NCBI GenBank assembly: GCA_021738565.1
Contig: JAIPBT010000016.1
Location: forward strand, 1-64,000
DNA from: Bacteroidales bacterium
Lineage (GTDB): Bacteria; Bacteroidota; Bacteroidia; Bacteroidales; GCA-2748055
DNA length: 64,000 bases
Direction: 5' to 3'
This document shows, piece by piece, positions 7,530-15,785 of the stretch. Under the pieces are notes generated by a model. That model was given only the letters and a program-made list of their open reading frames with translations. It had not been told where the DNA came from and did no database searches. Each line of letters begins with the position of its first letter. Within the stretch, counting starts at the first letter, position 1. Both the position numbers and the translations under genes were made by a program.

Positions 7530-8246
7530 ATGAAAAGATCAATCATCATCCTGCTGGTTTGCCTGCCTTTTGCGCTGTCTGGTCAAAGAACCGGCTTTTC
7601 AGTTACGGGGGGTGTTGGCACGTATGAACTTTCAGAACTGAAGAATTACCACAATGAACTTCTGGAAAGACTGCCCGTGGATATCAATGCAGGAAATTAT
7701 TTCCCTCCTTATTCGAATTTCAGGTTGAGCCTGTTCCGCGAAATGGCGAATGGTGTCAGGTACGGACTTGTTTACGGGTATTCAACATCTGGTGCACATG
7801 CCAATTACAAAGACTATTCCGGTTACCTCAACCTTGATCAGACCGTTACTGCTTATCAATTGGGCATCAGTGGCAGCTATAATTTGTTGAAATCATACTT
7901 TTTCAATTTCTATGTCTATGGGGACCTGAGACTTGGATATATCAGGGATGATGTCAACCTCAACATACTTACATCCTATTATTTTGACAACAGCAGCCTT
8001 TTGCTTCATGCGTTCTCTCCAATGGGTGAACTCGGATTTGAAGTGCTTTTCAACCTAAAAAAATTATCGATCGGTGGAGAAGTCGGATACCTTTATGATA
8101 CCGGCTTTAAATTCAACACTGGCAATGCAAATGAACTTGAAGCGACAATCGACCTTGGTCCGTCTGAAGCGATTCATTCCGGAATGTCAGGATTCAGAGC
8201 AGGGATAAAAGCGATCCTCTGGCTGACACCTATGGATGTTGAATGA
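7530..8246 (+). CDS. Outer-membrane beta-barrel protein
   Basis: The 238-residue protein has a Sec signal (MKRSIIILLVCLPFALSGQ). Its body alternates polar and aromatic residues with frequent turn Gly/Asn/Asp, as in a barrel of about 8-10 strands (for example VRYGLVYGYSTSG and FNFYVYGDLRLGYI). No enzymatic motif is seen. It is coupled to the lipoprotein gene upstream. Its last 17 bases overlap the 3' end of trpA on the opposite strand, so the two transcripts converge and overlap. Confidence 0.65.
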   Translation: MKRSIIILLVCLPFALSGQRTGFSVTGGVGTYELSELKNYHNELLERLPVDINAGNYFPPYSNFRLSLFREMANGVRYGLVYGYSTSGAHANYKDYSGYLNLDQTVTAYQLGISGSYNLLKSYFFNFYVYGDLRLGYIRDDVNLNILTSYYFDNSSLLLHAFSPMGELGFEVLFNLKKLSIGGEVGYLYDTGFKFNTGNANELEATIDLGPSEAIHSGMSGFRAGIKAILWLTPMDVE

Positions 8247-9015
8247 TTGAAGCAACAAATTCTTCCACTTTATCGGCTATTGGCTGTTTCTTTTCATCTC
8301 CAAGTGCGCTGATAAATGCACTTCCTATAATTGCCCCGTTTGCAAATGATGATGCCCGGTTAAAAGTTTCAGCATTCGAAATACCAAAACCAATCAGGCG
8401 GGGAATATGAAGTTTCATGGCTCCTACCCTCCTGAAATATTCAACCTGGGCACCGGTAATCTCATTTCGTGCCCCGGTTGTTGCTGAATCGGCAACCATG
8501 TATAGAAATCCACCGGAATTACCCACAATCTCCCTTATGCGGTTTTCAGAAGTCTGGGGAGTAATTAACATGATGTATTTCATACCTGAATCCTCCAAAT
8601 CCTCCCTGAAGCTCTCCCTGTATATTTCCAGTGGAAGATCCGGAAGGATCAATCCGTCAATGCCCACCCTGACAGCATCCTCAATGAATTTTCTAAAACC
8701 ATATGCCAGCACAGGGTTGAGGTATCCCATCAATACCAGGGGAGTGTTCACAAAACTGCGTATGCCCTTCAGCTGGCTGAACAGCAATTTAAGACTCATA
8801 CCGTTTTCAAGGGCCTGCTGACTGCTTTTTTGAATAACCTCTCCGTCTGCAAGCGGGTCGGAGAAAGGTATACCTATTTCAATCATATCGACACCTGATG
8901 ATTCCAGGGCTTTAATGATCTCCACCGTATCTCCGATCCGGGGATATCCTGCTGTCATATAAACAGATAATATCCTATTGTTTTTCCTTCTGAATAATTG
9001 GTCTATCCGGTTCAT
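8230..9015 (-). CDS. trpA: Tryptophan synthase alpha subunit
   Basis: The 261-residue TIM-barrel enzyme cleaves indole-3-glycerol phosphate to indole and glyceraldehyde-3-phosphate. The signature MIEIGIPFSDPLADGEVIQ carries the catalytic Glu and the PFSDP loop, and the phosphate-binding region (GFGISNAE) is intact. It is the last gene of trpEGDCFBA, 12 bases after trpB. Its 3' end overlaps the convergent barrel gene. Confidence 0.97.
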   Translation of the reverse strand: MNRIDQLFRRKNNRILSVYMTAGYPRIGDTVEIIKALESSGVDMIEIGIPFSDPLADGEVIQKSSQQALENGMSLKLLFSQLKGIRSFVNTPLVLMGYLNPVLAYGFRKFIEDAVRVGIDGLILPDLPLEIYRESFREDLEDSGMKYIMLITPQTSENRIREIVGNSGGFLYMVADSATTGARNEITGAQVEYFRRVGAMKLHIPRLIGFGISNAETFNRASSFANGAIIGSAFISALGDEKKQPIADKVEEFVASIIQHP

Positions 9016-9027
9016 TGCTTCCTTGAT

Positions 9028-10224
9028 TTAAATTTTATTCGGCAGGTTTTCAGTATAGGCTTCCATGTCCTTGTCTCCCCTTCCTGAAAGATTGATAACA
9101 ATGTTCTGTTCCGGATCCGGTTTGACATGATCCAGGGCAGCAACGGCATGAGCAGTCTCCAGCGCCGGAATAATGCCTTCAAGTTTTGACAGCAAATACG
9201 CTGCATGAAGCGCTTCATCATCCGTAACATTTATAATTTCAGCCCGTCCGCTCATTTTTAGCCATGCATGGATGGGTCCCACCCCGGGATAATCAAGCCC
9301 TGCACTGATTGAATAGGGCTCGGTGATCTGTCCGTCCACATCCTGCATCAGCAATGTCCTGCTCCCGTGAATGATGCCATCCGAACCAAGCGTGCTGGTT
9401 GCAGCAGATTCTCCGGAATCAACACCTTTTCCTGCTGCCTCTACCGAAAGAAGCCTGACCTGTTCATTATGCAGATAATGGTAATATGCCCCGGCTGCGT
9501 TGCTTCCCCCTCCGACACAGGCCATGATCACATCAGGATAATCCCTGCCCGTTTTTTCAGTGAGCTGAACTTTCATCTCCTCGCTTATAACAGACTGGAA
9601 ACGTGTTACCATATCGGGATAAGGATGTGGCCCCACTACAGATCCAATGATGTAATGCGTATCCACCGGATTATTTATCCAGTCCCTTATTGCCTGGTTG
9701 GTGGCATCCTTCAGGGTTTTATTGCCGGAATGGACCGGGATCACTTCTGCTCCGAGCATCTGCATTTTTCTTACATTGGGGGCCTGTCGTTCAACATCAA
9801 GTGCCCCCATGTAAACGATACAATTCAATCCGGCACGCGCACAAACAGTCGCTGTGGCAACTCCATGCTGCCCGGCACCGGTTTCAGCGATAATCCGGTG
9901 TTTTCCAAGGTGCCTTGCAAGAATGATCTGACCCACCGTGTTGTTGATCTTGTGTGCACCGGTATGGTTGAGGTCCTCCCTCTTAAGAAAAATGTTGCTG
10001 CCATAGCGATCAGACAACCGTTTGGCAAAGTACAAAGGTGTGGGTCTTCCCACGTAATCCCGTAGTAAATAATGAAACTCTGTCCTGAATGATTCCGATT
10101 CTATGATTCCCAGGTACTTCTCTTCGAGTTCCTTTATATTCGGATACAACATCTCAGGAATATATGCCCCGCCATAGGGGCCGTAGAACCCCTTTTTATC
10201 AACATTATAGGATGTTTTATTCAT
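9028..10224 (-). CDS. trpB: Tryptophan synthase beta subunit
   Basis: The 398-residue PLP enzyme condenses indole with serine to give tryptophan. The PLP lysine is Lys92 in HTGAHKINNTVGQ, and the phosphate-binding loop GGGSNAAG is present. The length and the N-terminal GPYGGAYIPE segment are those of the standard TrpB1 type. The start overlaps the end of trpF by 8 bases, implying translational coupling. Confidence 0.98.
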   Translation of the reverse strand: MNKTSYNVDKKGFYGPYGGAYIPEMLYPNIKELEEKYLGIIESESFRTEFHYLLRDYVGRPTPLYFAKRLSDRYGSNIFLKREDLNHTGAHKINNTVGQIILARHLGKHRIIAETGAGQHGVATATVCARAGLNCIVYMGALDVERQAPNVRKMQMLGAEVIPVHSGNKTLKDATNQAIRDWINNPVDTHYIIGSVVGPHPYPDMVTRFQSVISEEMKVQLTEKTGRDYPDVIMACVGGGSNAAGAYYHYLHNEQVRLLSVEAAGKGVDSGESAATSTLGSDGIIHGSRTLLMQDVDGQITEPYSISAGLDYPGVGPIHAWLKMSGRAEIINVTDDEALHAAYLLSKLEGIIPALETAHAVAALDHVKPDPEQNIVINLSGRGDKDMEAYTENLPNKI

Positions 10225-10852
10225 TTCTGATCTTTTTTAAAAATTCACTTACCATATCAAATGATTTGATGCCTGGTTCGGTTTCAAAACGCGAATTAAT
10301 ATCCACACCTGCCATCGAGGGCAGATCAAGTGATAAAATACGATCCGGATCTTCAGGAGATATCCCGCCACTTAAAAAGAAAGGCACGGATGTCAGAGAC
10401 CCGGGCAACTCCGACCAATTAAATTTCCTGCCACTCCCCCCATATGATCTGACAGGTGTATCAAAAAGGAAATAATCAACCGATCCTGCATAATCCTTTT
10501 GCAACTGACCGTTTGCTGATTCATTGCCAGGAAAAACCTTAATAACGGTTTTGCCCCTCGATCTCAGTGCATGACAGGTCCCCGGGGCTTCAACACCATG
10601 TAGCTGAAGGGTATTTATCTTGTATTTTTCAGTAAGTTCCAGCATTTTTTCATATTTCTCATTGACAAAAACACCAACTTTTTCAATAGCATCAGGAACG
10701 ATTGAAAATACTGCAGGGTCGGGGTGACGGCCCACATATCGGACCGATCTTGAGTAGAAGATAAAGCCCAGAAGATCAGGTTTACAGGCGCATATCGCTT
10801 CTACATTCAGTGGGTCGGTCATTCCGCATACCTTAACCAAAAGTCTATCCAT
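10217..10852 (-). CDS. trpF: Phosphoribosylanthranilate isomerase
   Basis: The 211-residue TIM barrel isomerises N-(5-phosphoribosyl)anthranilate. Motifs seen are VCGMTDPLNVEAI at the N-terminus with the catalytic Cys, FLFDTPVRSYGGSG with the catalytic Asp, and FFLSGGISPED, the phosphate-binding turn. It is a separate gene rather than a trpC fusion. It follows trpC with 1 base between them. Confidence 0.96.
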   Translation of the reverse strand: MDRLLVKVCGMTDPLNVEAICACKPDLLGFIFYSRSVRYVGRHPDPAVFSIVPDAIEKVGVFVNEKYEKMLELTEKYKINTLQLHGVEAPGTCHALRSRGKTVIKVFPGNESANGQLQKDYAGSVDYFLFDTPVRSYGGSGRKFNWSELPGSLTSVPFFLSGGISPEDPDRILSLDLPSMAGVDINSRFETEPGIKSFDMVSEFLKKIRNE

Positions 10853-10853
10853 A

Positions 10854-11645
10854 TCAATCTGTATTCAATTGTTTTAAGAATTCTCCAAGCGCCCGGCCGG
10901 GATCCGGTTCTTTCATAAATCGCTCTCCCATGAGAAATCCCCTGTAACCTGCATCAAACAACATCCTGATATCTTTAATGTCCTTCAGTCCGCTTTCAGA
11001 TATTTTCAATGCCTCTTCAGGAAGATATCCGAATAGTTCAACGGAGTGATCCAGGCTGACACTGAAACTATTCAGATCCCGGTTGTTCACGCCGATAAAA
11101 TTGATGCCCGGCAGCCATTTATCAGTGTCCTCCTTCGAATGTACTTCAAGCAAAACTGTTAATCCAAGGTCATCTGCAACACGGGTCATTTCCCTTACTT
11201 GTGAGCCGGTCAGTACAGCTGAAATAAGCAGGATCATATCGGCTCCGTATGCCTTTGCTTCGTGCACCTGGTAGGGATCTATCATAAAATCTTTTCGCAA
11301 CAAAGGGAAACCCTGCATCGCTTGTTTTACATCTTCCAGGTCTCTGAATGACCCGCCAAAAAAATCCCTGTCGGTAAGGATACTTGAACAAACAGCTCCT
11401 CCATCCCTGTAAGATTTTACAACATCTACCGGGTCTGCATGTTCTTTAAACTGACCGGCAGAGGGTGATCTGCGCTTGAATTCAGCAATGATACCCGGCT
11501 GGCCCAGCTTGAAATGATCCATAGGATTAAGACATGCTTTAGGGTAGAATGGTTTCTTCATCAATTCCTTCAAAGGTTTTCTTCCTTTCCTCTTCAGGAC
11601 TTCCATCCTTTTGTGTTCCACTATGGTATCAAGTATCGTCTTCAT
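10854..11645 (-). CDS. trpC: Indole-3-glycerol phosphate synthase
   Basis: The enzyme closes the indole ring in tryptophan synthesis. The signature IAEFKRRSPSAG with catalytic Lys is near residue 52, and LLRKDFMIDPYQ, VNNRDLNSF and SESGL follow in family order. The start at ATG 11645 (MKTILDTIVEHK) aligns with known TrpC N-termini; an ATG three codons earlier (11654) is also possible and would nearly abut the trpD stop. It is separate from trpF. Confidence 0.95.
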   Translation of the reverse strand: MKTILDTIVEHKRMEVLKRKGRKPLKELMKKPFYPKACLNPMDHFKLGQPGIIAEFKRRSPSAGQFKEHADPVDVVKSYRDGGAVCSSILTDRDFFGGSFRDLEDVKQAMQGFPLLRKDFMIDPYQVHEAKAYGADMILLISAVLTGSQVREMTRVADDLGLTVLLEVHSKEDTDKWLPGINFIGVNNRDLNSFSVSLDHSVELFGYLPEEALKISESGLKDIKDIRMLFDAGYRGFLMGERFMKEPDPGRALGEFLKQLNTD

Positions 11646-11655
11646 TTTAAACATT

Positions 11656-12648
11656 TTATTGCAGGTCGATCAATTTCCTGAATACTTCATACGCACTGCC
11701 CGATTCCAATGATTCAGTTGCAGCCAGCACCCCGTCTTCAATATTCATACCTGGATCAATGGTCTGCAATGCAAATGCCGCATTTGCAATAACAACATTC
11801 TTCTGCGCCCGTGTTCCCTTCTCTTCAAGCACATTCAAAAAGACCTTGCCTGACGCTTCTACAGAGTCCCCGCCAAAAATCTCATCCGGATTAACTTTCA
11901 TCAATCCTGTTTCACCGGGAGAAATCGTCCGTTCCCATTTTTCAGTAAAAGCTTTAAAAGGCCCTGTGAGTGAAATCTCATCGTAGCCATCCAGTGAATG
12001 GATAATGGTGAAATTAGATCCTGATTCCTGGTAAATATAGTTATACAACCTCGCCACATCAAGACTGAAAACACCCACAAGCTGGTTGCGCGGGAAAGAA
12101 GGATTTACCATTGGTCCGAGCATATTGAAAAAAGTTTTCATGCGAAGGCTTTTTCGCACAGGGGCAACATTTTTCATGGCAGGATTGAAAAGAGGTGCAT
12201 GTAAAAAGCAGATGCCAGTCCGGTCCATCTCCTTTTTCAGTTTGTCGCCATCGCTGGAAAAAACGTATCCAAAATATTCCATCACATTGGATGACCCGCA
12301 GTTTGAGGAGACACTGTAATTGCCATGCTTTGATACATGATAGCCTGCACCGGCAACAGCAAAGGCCGTAAGGGTAGATATGTTGAATGTGTTTTTCCCA
12401 TCCCCTCCCGTTCCACAAACATCAATTGTATTGAAATCCGACAGGTCCAGCGGTACGCATAATTCAAGCAATGCATCCCTGAATCCTGTTAATTCTTCAA
12501 CAGTTATGTTGCGCATGAGGTAAACAGAAACAAAAGCGGCAATTTCAGGTTCGTTATAGGCGCCCCTGGCAATCTTGGTAAGAACCTGTTTGGCATCCTC
12601 CTTTGTCAGTGTTTTGTGGTCAAAGAGATAACTCAATATTTCCTTCAT
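11656..12648 (-). CDS. trpD: Anthranilate phosphoribosyltransferase
   Basis: The 330-residue enzyme transfers phosphoribose from PRPP to anthranilate. The diagnostic stretch VCGTGGDGKNTFNIST is followed by SKHGNYSVSSNCGSS, which forms the PRPP and anthranilate sites. The helical N-terminal domain is complete. It lies between trpG (47-base gap) and trpC. Confidence 0.97.
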   Translation of the reverse strand: MKEILSYLFDHKTLTKEDAKQVLTKIARGAYNEPEIAAFVSVYLMRNITVEELTGFRDALLELCVPLDLSDFNTIDVCGTGGDGKNTFNISTLTAFAVAGAGYHVSKHGNYSVSSNCGSSNVMEYFGYVFSSDGDKLKKEMDRTGICFLHAPLFNPAMKNVAPVRKSLRMKTFFNMLGPMVNPSFPRNQLVGVFSLDVARLYNYIYQESGSNFTIIHSLDGYDEISLTGPFKAFTEKWERTISPGETGLMKVNPDEIFGGDSVEASGKVFLNVLEEKGTRAQKNVVIANAAFALQTIDPGMNIEDGVLAATESLESGSAYEVFRKLIDLQ

Positions 12649-12695
12649 TCGTCTGTAATTTTTCGATGCAAATGCATGTTTTTATCAAATCGCAA

Positions 12696-13274
12696 TTATA
12701 TATTTTTCCCATCCAGCCAGTTTTTGATGATCATTCCACCATATTCTGTCAAAACAGATTCAGGATGGAACTGCACGCCCCTCACATCAAAGTCCCTGTG
12801 CCGCAAAGCCATTATCTCACCGGCCCCGTTCCTGACAGTTATCTCCAAACATGGCGGCAGCGTTTCCTCCTCAACGATCCAGGAATGGTACCTTCCCGCA
12901 TCAAAAACTTCCGGCAGACCATGGAACAAATAATCATCCCCAACGACCTGATGCATCTTGTCCGATACTCCATGATATACCTTATCAAGGTTCCTGATGC
13001 TGCCTCCGTAAACTTCCGCGATGGCCTGATGACCGAGGCATACCCCCAGGATGCTCTTTTTTTCTCCATGGGATGCGATCACTGACTTGCTGATCCCTGC
13101 TTCCTCGGGAATGCCCGGGCCCGGAGATATGACGATCTTATCAAAGGATGCAATCTCTTTGATTAGTATTTTATCATTCCTCGCTACAAACACTTTCATA
13201 CCCCTGATCCTTTCAATATACTGCACCAGGTTATATGTAAATGAATCGTAGTTATCTATTACCAAAACTTTCAT
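12696..13274 (-). CDS. trpG: Anthranilate synthase component II (glutamine amidotransferase)
   Basis: The 192-residue class I amidotransferase supplies ammonia from glutamine to TrpE. The nucleophile is Cys79 in LGVCLGHQAIAEVYGG, the oxyanion strand is ISPGPGIPEEAG, and the catalytic His/Glu lie in GVQFHPESVLTEYG. It starts 10 bases after trpE and is a separate polypeptide. Linkage to trp makes TrpG more likely than PabA, though dual use is possible. Confidence 0.95.
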   Translation of the reverse strand: MKVLVIDNYDSFTYNLVQYIERIRGMKVFVARNDKILIKEIASFDKIVISPGPGIPEEAGISKSVIASHGEKKSILGVCLGHQAIAEVYGGSIRNLDKVYHGVSDKMHQVVGDDYLFHGLPEVFDAGRYHSWIVEEETLPPCLEITVRNGAGEIMALRHRDFDVRGVQFHPESVLTEYGGMIIKNWLDGKNI

Positions 13275-13284
13275 TAGTCTGTTA

Positions 13285-14691
13285 TTAAATATGTTGCGCC
13301 ATTTGAATGGCAGATGTCAATGCTGCAAGTTTGTTTTTTACCTCCTTCAGTTCAGATTCTCTTTTTGATTCTGATACAATGCCGGCCCCGGCCTGGTAAA
13401 ACAGACGGTTGTTCTTCGACATGAAAGACCGAATCATTATGGCATGGTTGATGTCTCCGTTCAGCCTGATATTCCCAATGGTGCCCCCGTAAAAACCCCT
13501 TCTTTTTCCTTCGTAGGCATCGATCAGTTCCATGGCTCTGTATTTCGGAGCTCCGGACAATGTACCAGCAGGGAAGGACTCTGCCATGATCTCTATCGTA
13601 TTGGCCCCTGGTTTCAATTGTCCGGACACCTTAGAAACCATATGTATCACGTGTGAATAGAATTGAATTTCCCGGTATTTCTCCACGGTTACCCTGGATG
13701 TGGTCCGGCTGAGATCATTCCGGGCAAGGTCAACAAGCATGATGTGTTCTGCATTCTCTTTTTCATCATCAGCCAGCCTTTTCGCCAATTCCTGGTCATC
13801 ATCATCATTCCCTGTTCTGCGGAATGTGCCGGCGATCGGATTGATGTATGCCTTGCCCCCGCTTACCTCAATCTGGGTCTCCGGTGAAGAACCGAATAAC
13901 CTGAAACTGCCGTAATCAAAATAGAAAAGATAGGGTGAAGGGTTGATCGATCTGAGCGACCTGTAAACGTTGAAATCATCTCCCCTGAATCCCTGGGAGA
14001 ATTGTCGGGAAAGTACGATCTGAAAGACATCCCCCCTGTAACAGTGCTCTTTACCCCGGTCTACAATCTCCATGTACTGCTCATCGGTCATGTTTGTTTG
14101 CTCCCCGCCGACAGTCTTAAAGTGATAAGTGGCTATGTTCCTGTTCTGTATCAGGTCTCCAATGTATTGCAGTTCAGATTTCTCTCCATCAACCAGGTTT
14201 TCTATGATCTGAAGCTCATTCTTCAGGTGGTTGATCGCTATGATGTATTTGTAAAATCCGTATTTAATGTCAGGGATCTGTTCTTCGCTGTCAATCCCGG
14301 CTTCCAGTTTGATGTCTTCAAAATACATGACAGAATCGTATGCAGAATACCCGAAAATGCCATCAATTACAAGATCACTTTTCTGCCGTTCCGGTTGAAA
14401 AGTGTGAACAAATTCATCCAGCTTCTCAACCACCTCCCGCCGGTTGGTTATTTTCTGCTCATGCTTTCCGTATCCCGGCAATTGCACCACCAGGTTGTCG
14501 TTGATTACCTCAAAATCTGCCAGGGGCCGGAGACATATAAACGAAAAGGAGTTCTGGTTGCTGTGATAATCAGAACTTTCCAACAACAAAGCCCCCGGAA
14601 ATACATCCCGCACCTTAAGATAGATACTAACAGGCGTTATGATGTCTGCAAGGATCGTTTTTGATTCAGTTTTAATCTTGATCTTTTCCAT
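13285..14691 (-). CDS. trpE: Anthranilate synthase component I
   Basis: The 468-residue chorismate-binding enzyme makes anthranilate with TrpG. The N-terminal LLLESSDYHSNQ corresponds to the feedback tryptophan-binding LLES motif, so allosteric inhibition is expected. The catalytic domain shows PSPYLFYFDYG, PIAGTFRRTG, FPAGTLSGAPK and GFYGGTIG. It is the first structural gene of the operon. Its start lies 8 bases after the attenuator U-tract, so its expression depends directly on readthrough of that terminator. Confidence 0.97.
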   Translation of the reverse strand: MEKIKIKTESKTILADIITPVSIYLKVRDVFPGALLLESSDYHSNQNSFSFICLRPLADFEVINDNLVVQLPGYGKHEQKITNRREVVEKLDEFVHTFQPERQKSDLVIDGIFGYSAYDSVMYFEDIKLEAGIDSEEQIPDIKYGFYKYIIAINHLKNELQIIENLVDGEKSELQYIGDLIQNRNIATYHFKTVGGEQTNMTDEQYMEIVDRGKEHCYRGDVFQIVLSRQFSQGFRGDDFNVYRSLRSINPSPYLFYFDYGSFRLFGSSPETQIEVSGGKAYINPIAGTFRRTGNDDDDQELAKRLADDEKENAEHIMLVDLARNDLSRTTSRVTVEKYREIQFYSHVIHMVSKVSGQLKPGANTIEIMAESFPAGTLSGAPKYRAMELIDAYEGKRRGFYGGTIGNIRLNGDINHAIMIRSFMSKNNRLFYQAGAGIVSESKRESELKEVKNKLAALTSAIQMAQHI

Positions 14692-14699
14692 AATTGTTC

Positions 14700-14738
14700 A
14701 AAAAAAAACTCAGGGCCCGCCGAATGACGAGCCCTGAG
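14700..14738 (-). terminator. trp operon attenuator terminator
   Basis: On the minus strand CTCAGGGC (from 14738-14731) pairs with GCCCTGAG (14716-14709), and nine U follow (14708-14700). The hairpin stands between the leader peptide and trpE. The loop carries GTCATTCGG (14728-14720), which can pair with CCGAAGTTGAC upstream (14773-14763). That alternative pairing would occupy the loop and compete with terminator formation. Confidence 0.9.
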
Positions 14739-14760
14739 CTTAATATTATCTAATATTGAC

Positions 14761-14797
14761 TGGTCAACTTCGGTTAACAGGTATCGAAGTTCCACCA
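14761..14797 (-). promoter_or_regulatory. trp leader pause hairpin and antiterminator arm
   Basis: AACTTCG (14791-14785) pairs with CGAAGTT (14772-14766), and TGGT (14797-14794) with ACCA (14764-14761), forming a 1:2 hairpin that overlaps the Trp codons and stop codon of the leader. The second strand (14773-14763) can instead pair with 14728-14720 in the terminator loop. A ribosome stalled on the Trp codons would mask strand 1 and favour antitermination. Confidence 0.75.
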
Positions 14798-14827
14798 CCA
14801 GTTGTTATTTGTATTTCTCAGTAACAT
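14774..14827 (-). CDS. trpL: trp leader peptide (MLLRNTNNNWWWNFDTC)
   Basis: This is a 17-codon ORF on the minus strand, 82 bases upstream of trpE, with ATG at 14827-14825 and TAA at 14776-14774. Codons 10-12 are three consecutive TGG (Trp). An AGGA-like ribosome site lies about 9 bases ahead. Three adjacent Trp codons in such a short ORF, directly before mutually exclusive hairpins and a terminator, are the hallmark of ribosome-mediated attenuation. The peptide itself should have no other role. Confidence 0.88.
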   Translation of the reverse strand: MLLRNTNNNWWWNFDTC

Positions 14828-14964
14828 ATTTTGATTTCCTGGTGGTAAAAATAGAACATTTTTAAGAAAAAAAAGAAATCTTTTAAAAAATTGATACTTC
14901 CCTTTGTCTCCTGATTGGTATCTGTCACTAAATCATAGATTTACATCATAAAAAATGAATTGAG

Positions 14965-15017: not shown

Positions 15018-15785
15018 ATGAAGCTTATCCTTAGAAATGGCGGACTGTTCCTTGGTATCTGGATCGCTGTAATGATCATCTATGCAATAGCAAATGGAGT
15101 TTCCAGTTTCGAGTACCTGTGGAAATTCTCACTGCTTCCCGGACTGGTGCTGGCATCAGTAGCTGTCGTGGGAACGTTGCTACAAAAATATGTTCCTGTA
15201 AAGAAAGGGATCAACTGGATTTTTCTGATCATTGCGCTGGGACTGGATCAGGGTATTAAGATTTATTTGTTTTCGCTGGACTGGGAAAGTCTGTCAATAC
15301 CTTTAATCAAACCTGTTTTTTATTTGGAACCGACACAGAACACACTTGGCTCATACCTGTGGGTGCTGCTCAATTTTAAAAAAGGCTCCCATCTTTTCAA
15401 TATCCTGTTGTTTTCCATCATAGGATTTCTATTTGTGGAGATCTGGAGATTCTACACATCACGCAAACGAAATAGTTTTTGGATCAACGGCTTCATACAT
15501 CTATTTCTTGCAGGATTGCTTGCAAATATTATTGACAATGCCTACTGGGGAGGCTCACTGGATTACATAACCATCAAGCCATTTTATACATTCGACCTGA
15601 AGGATATGTACATCACCCTCTGTGAACTTTTCCTGGTAACAGAACTGGTCGACAACCGGCTATTAAAACACCTGTTGAAAATGCCGAAAGATGAAAGCAA
15701 AAGGTTGAATAATGATTTCTATGCCTTTATAAAGAAGGATTTAAAATCGCTAAGGCATGTTTTTAAAAGAAGAAAAAACAGGTGA
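15018..15785 (+). CDS. Signal peptidase II (LspA)-like membrane protein
   Basis: The 255-residue protein has six or so hydrophobic segments. It keeps divergent versions of the LspA signatures: LGLDQGIKI (Asp77; LspA usually DxxxK), ANIIDNAYWGGSLDYI (catalytic-type Asp173 in an Nxx-D context) and FDLKDMYI (Asp196). Both catalytic aspartates of an aspartyl lipoprotein signal peptidase are therefore present, while surrounding residues differ from housekeeping LspA and the protein is about 90 residues longer, with an extra N-terminal membrane pair and a basic C-tail. It may be a specialised or inactive paralogue. No operon partner. Confidence 0.65.
   Translation: MKLILRNGGLFLGIWIAVMIIYAIANGVSSFEYLWKFSLLPGLVLASVAVVGTLLQKYVPVKKGINWIFLIIALGLDQGIKIYLFSLDWESLSIPLIKPVFYLEPTQNTLGSYLWVLLNFKKGSHLFNILLFSIIGFLFVEIWRFYTSRKRNSFWINGFIHLFLAGLLANIIDNAYWGGSLDYITIKPFYTFDLKDMYITLCELFLVTELVDNRLLKHLLKMPKDESKRLNNDFYAFIKKDLKSLRHVFKRRKNR

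Follow-up and report, generated by a model that had tools for sequence, protein, structure and literature searches.

We identified the region upstream of trpE in an uncultured Bacteroidales bacterium as a probable ribosome-mediated transcription attenuator of the trpEGDCFBA operon, a reading to which, judging from sequence and computed folding, we would give a probability of roughly 0.9. Tryptophan attenuation is a textbook mechanism and has been studied mainly in Proteobacteria and Actinobacteria. The window, by which we mean the whole stretch of DNA that was analysed, comprises positions 1-64,000 of contig JAIPBT010000016.1 (assembly GCA_021738565.1). A preliminary description of this DNA had already proposed ribosome-mediated trp attenuation, and the proposal is now supported by the anatomy of the leader, the conservation of its Trp codons, covariation and a computed folding switch. 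The features concerned are collected in Table 1.

Table 1. Elements of the predicted trp attenuator and of the operon downstream, in window coordinates.
Feature	Position	Strand	Remark
Putative Bacteroidetes-type -7 element, TATTTTTA	14846..14853	-	consensus TAnnTTTG
Leader peptide ORF, MLLRNTNNNWWWNFDTC followed by the stop	14774..14827	-	17 codons; WWW kept in relatives
Three adjacent Trp codons, TGGTGGTGG, sensor	14792..14800	-	invariant columns in family alignment A1
Region 1, AACTTCG	14785..14791	-	pairs with region 2
Region 2, CCGAAGTTGACCAGTC	14758..14773	-	partner is region 1 or the terminator apex
Region 3, GGCTCGTCATTCGG	14720..14733	-	upper 5' arm, loop and first two 3'-arm bases of the terminator
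Intrinsic terminator hairpin	14706..14741	-	16 pairs, loop ATTC
Terminator T-run	14700..14708	-	
trpE, first controlled gene	13285..14691	-	best match TIGR00564, below its curated cut-off
trpG, trpD, trpC, trpF, trpB, trpA, in that order	8230..13274	-	

The earlier coordinates are correct. The 17-codon ORF with three consecutive TGG codons was found, and on the minus strand it runs from an ATG at 14827-14825 to a TAA stop at 14776-14774. A complete trp operon, trpEGDCFBA, lies downstream of it. TGGTGGTGG occurs at 47 sites in the genome from which the window comes; among the 46 of these 47 that were read, only the leader combines a short ORF with a terminator after it. The preliminary description had regarded the adjacency of the Trp codons as unusual, which does not hold, as Bacteroidota leaders normally have three Trp codons side by side. 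A putative promoter motif precedes the ATG by about 26 nt, which would place the leader inside the transcript. Such Bacteroidetes-type motifs, searched for as a -7 type element plus a -33 TTTG with one mismatch allowed in each, precede 102 of 120 leaders (25% in shuffles), some 27 nt ahead of the ATG, and TAYTTTTA is conserved in L003-L005. Transcription starting downstream of 14774 had been named as a finding that would speak against attenuation; the predicted promoter motif lies well upstream of that position. Further upstream, a divergent gene (15018-15785, plus strand) has a weak match to signal peptidase II (LspA), below cut-off. The DNA upstream of trpE looks similar in the sister genus, and the neighbourhood may be conserved.

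Region 2 starts directly after the stop codon, 18 nt past the last Trp codon, and can form a 1:2 hairpin with region 1 (AACTTCG 14791-14785 with CGAAGTT 14772-14766). This hairpin had been thought to cover both the Trp codons and the stop. The stop codon does lie inside its loop, but the Trp codons sit directly 5' of the stem and join only via an outer helix (CTGGT 14801-14797 with ACCAG 14764-14760). The terminator claimed just before trpE is indeed a strong intrinsic one, with 16 pairs and a T-run; trpE starts at 14691, 8 nt past it, and no other terminator-like site was found on either strand between 14600 and 15050. The leader as a whole folds 5.7 s.d. below shuffles. Two other helices were considered and set aside. 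The helix of ACCACCAG (14847-14838) with the Trp codons dominates the lowest-energy fold but is probably outside the mechanism, because it runs into the putative -7 element and start site and L003-L005 lack it. The helix GCACAA:TTGTGC, which brackets the Trp codons of the sister genus, is not retained in the window's genus and offers no two-sided change.

Region 2 has a second potential partner in the apex of the terminator. The alternative pairing of 14773-14763 with 14728-14720 is present as described before (14773-14769 with 14724-14720, and 14766-14763 with 14728-14725) and reaches further, to AGTC 14761-14758 with GGCT 14733-14730. It thereby spans the loop together with 7-8 bases of the upper 5' arm on one side and two 3'-arm bases on the other, which makes the window an intermediate type, and computed pairing probabilities are 0.8-0.98 on the loop and apex and at most 0.42 at the terminator base. 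The idea that the antiterminator uses the loop instead of the 5' arm is therefore only partly upheld: use of the loop is real and conserved, but the window adds the upper 5' arm. Against shuffled versions of region 2 the window's pairing is borderline (p 0.06), and its weight comes from the relatives.

A WWW leader and a terminator stand before trpE in each of the 20 distinct family relatives with upstream DNA, and the WWW leader recurs in about 100 further Bacteroidota leaders. We gathered 123 non-identical leader-terminator units with two or three Trp codons from the order and the class, among them units from named genera such as Salegentibacter, Flavobacterium and Chitinophaga; as the collection demanded a WW-type ORF plus a terminator, this number gauges spread and not frequency. 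At some trpE loci in the order no such unit was found. A comparison of trpE leaders in related genomes, as the preliminary description had suggested, showed both the Trp codons and the alternative pairing to be conserved. The peptide after WWW is variable, with even the reading frame shifting (L016, L018), while the RNA motif CCGGAG is kept, which points to the RNA, and not the C-terminus of the peptide, as the target of selection.

Some leaders depart from this arrangement. Tandem Trp leader ORFs, each with its own terminator, precede trpE in L087 (minus strand; ORFs at about 1175 and about 1338 of the reverse complement) and also in L165 and L168, less clearly in L090 and L112, which suggests double attenuators. 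In L032-L036 (G131, G086, G114, G056 and G037; RF01692-type) about 1.2-1.3 kb separate the leader from trpE, which places a further gene, probably trpB, ahead of trpE in the operon. L035 additionally has a match to the DUF805b RNA motif (RF02914) at 804-842, about 0.7 kb before the trp leader.

Covariation provides a link between region 2 and the terminator apex for which the window by itself is borderline. Across the 123 units, cognate pairs of region 2 and apex average -11.7 kcal/mol compared with -8.2 kcal/mol for non-cognate pairs. Among 17 dissimilar leaders (clusters at 70% identity, a harsh and hence conservative test) the values are -12.4 and -8.0 kcal/mol, and 0 of 10,000 permutations did as well. 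The paired motifs vary by lineage yet stay complementary, as in CCGGAG:CTTCGG, TCGTAAG:CTTACGG, ACCGTGAGT:ACTCACGGT and TTGTGTTAAGC:GCTTAACACAA. The spacing is also held, region 2 starting 17-21 nt past the last Trp codon in most units (interquartile range 18-21 in the 17 dissimilar leaders). A mean pairing of at least 0.5 is seen on the loop in 80% of the Bacteroidota units and on the first 3'-arm bases in 60%. The family alignment alone gave no covariation, because its antiterminator columns are almost invariant. Taken over the phylum, the predicted, mutually exclusive antiterminator is conserved by covariation.

The position of the ribosome could operate this switch. Region 2 is clear of a ribosome at the first Trp codon in 119 of 120 units and falls inside the footprint of a ribosome at the stop codon in 109 of the 120. 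At the stage when 4 nt of the 3' arm have emerged from the polymerase, the median computed probability of the antiterminator is 1.00 for a ribosome at the first Trp codon and 0.01 for one at the stop; for the window the values are 0.98 and 0.02. With the ribosome at the first Trp codon, the antiterminator typically leads up to the point at which 6-9 nt of the 3' arm have emerged. The complete terminator greatly exceeds the antiterminator in stability, and antitermination must therefore be kinetic, presumably decided by which structure is first to form during passage of the polymerase over the T-run. For 9 of the 123 units, folding gave no stretch in which the antiterminator wins.

Regulation might then proceed as follows. 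When charged tRNA-Trp is ample, the ribosome would reach the stop codon (14776-14774) and mask region 2, and the terminator would form before trpE. When Trp is scarce, the ribosome would stall on the Trp codons and leave region 2 free to grip the apex of the nascent terminator, that is the upper 5' arm, the loop and the first 3'-arm bases. This pairing would precede the exit of the remaining 3' arm from the polymerase and lead to readthrough into trpE. In the absence of translation, the 1:2 hairpin would compete for region 2. From this arrangement we infer that the ribosome stalls, that the terminator is blocked kinetically and that expression responds to Trp.

Several known systems resemble the leader. 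E. coli trpL (RF00513) shares a leader peptide with adjacent Trp codons, the 1:2, 2:3 and 3:4 alternatives and the masking of region 2 by a ribosome at the stop; unlike in the window, its region 2 pairs, in the same analysis, with the basal 5' arm (0.8-1.0), hardly with the loop (about 0) and not with the 3' arm. The Trp_leader covariance model (RF00513) has no match in the window. A sub-threshold match to RF00513 was seen at the right place in L115 (1218-1315; 31.9 bits, E 0.01). RcsR1 (RF02552), which we take to be the rhizobial trp leader RNA, has the lowest E-value among the window's sub-threshold Rfam matches (19.3 bits, E 0.23). The Trp codons, the CCAG partner and the terminator of this alphaproteobacterial rnTrpL align with those of the window, although the score is far under the gathering score of 60 and the phylum is another one. 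There is no Rfam match to a T-box in the window. Actinobacterial trp attenuators (PMC1262725) resemble the window in having UGG codons repeated two or three times and a GC-rich terminator with a poly-U tract, and differ from it in their shared complementary pattern, gGCC-rGCy-GGCC.

The closest system is RF01692, 'Bacteroid-trp' or 'Bacteroidete tryptophan peptide leader RNA' (Weinberg et al., 2010; PMC2864571), which in the main text of that paper is represented by a table row only, apparently as 'probably cis-regulatory'; the preliminary description had not taken this RNA into account. It shares with the window the phylum, the order, the site before trp genes, a Trp-rich leader ORF, the 1:2 hairpin and the terminator. 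Its model does not match the window, even to E = 10 (gathering cut-off 49 bits), and matches occur in 11 of 149 genomes of the order, 7 of them above the cut-off. Among the relatives, scores range from 37.7 in a member of the family (L022) through 37-44 in others to 67.2 in Flavobacterium (L064), grading into RF01692, and the window is thus outside the model but apparently not outside its kind. The model stops within the 5' arm of the terminator, so that the antiterminator partner falls outside it and loop pairing cannot be shown by it. In members of RF01692, region 2 is complementary to the terminator loop (e.g. GTCGTAAG:CTTGCGGC in L163 and GTCGTGAG:CTCACGAC in L103).

Food for debate is which part of the terminator is decisive. 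The trp attenuators of Bacteroidota could work 'loop-first', region 2 capturing the loop and the apical 3' arm during their exit from the polymerase and blocking nucleation of the hairpin at the loop rather than sequestering the base of the 5' arm; we consider the odds of this about even. Alternatively, attenuation may be real but work through a classical antiterminator, in which region 2 pairs with the 5' arm, the match to the loop being incidental. The upper 5'-arm bases in the window's own pairing fit this view, as do L075, L117 and L173, among others, which pair mostly the 5' arm and the loop. We nevertheless think it rather unlikely, since in many relatives (e.g. L061-L069, L103 and L110) the core helix consists of loop and 3' arm only, mean computed pairing peaks on the loop (0.72, compared with 0.60 on the basal 5' arm), and the E. 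coli control gave the 5' arm only.

Other explanations would do without stalling at codons, or without regulation. The leader peptide or its RNA could sense free tryptophan or act in trans, as do TnaC and the rhizobial peTrpL. Trp leaders with a role in trans are known (PMC7298713) and the RcsR1 match would agree with one, but the residues past WWW are unconserved and shift frame while the RNA motif is kept, which leaves this option very improbable. That the leader is a chance short ORF beside the ordinary terminator of an upstream transcript, with no regulation at all, is scarcely credible: the borderline value of the window's alternative pairing taken alone would allow it, but conservation and covariation throughout the phylum contradict it, and the upstream gene is divergent, so that there is no annotated upstream transcript to terminate. 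Ribosome-mediated attenuation is the reading that we retain.

An attenuator in Bacteroidota is already predicted, and the window is a further member of that predicted class. Our literature search, which covered the main text of PMC2864571, returned nothing on trp attenuators of Bacteroidota beyond that 2010 table entry and no description of an antiterminator that pairs with the apex or loop of the terminator. The conserved apex-targeting antiterminator is the distinctive part and is worth testing by specialists, as it constitutes a clear and testable difference in design. In the genomes compared, predicted trp attenuators are widespread before the trp genes of Bacteroidota, well past the reach of the Rfam model. 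A region 2 that can pair with the terminator loop and lies 17-21 nt past the Trp codons could serve as a search rule for more leader-peptide attenuators in this phylum. If the loop-first mode proves true, it would represent a phylum-wide, previously undescribed attenuator design, possibly operating via a transient pseudoknot with the basal stem.
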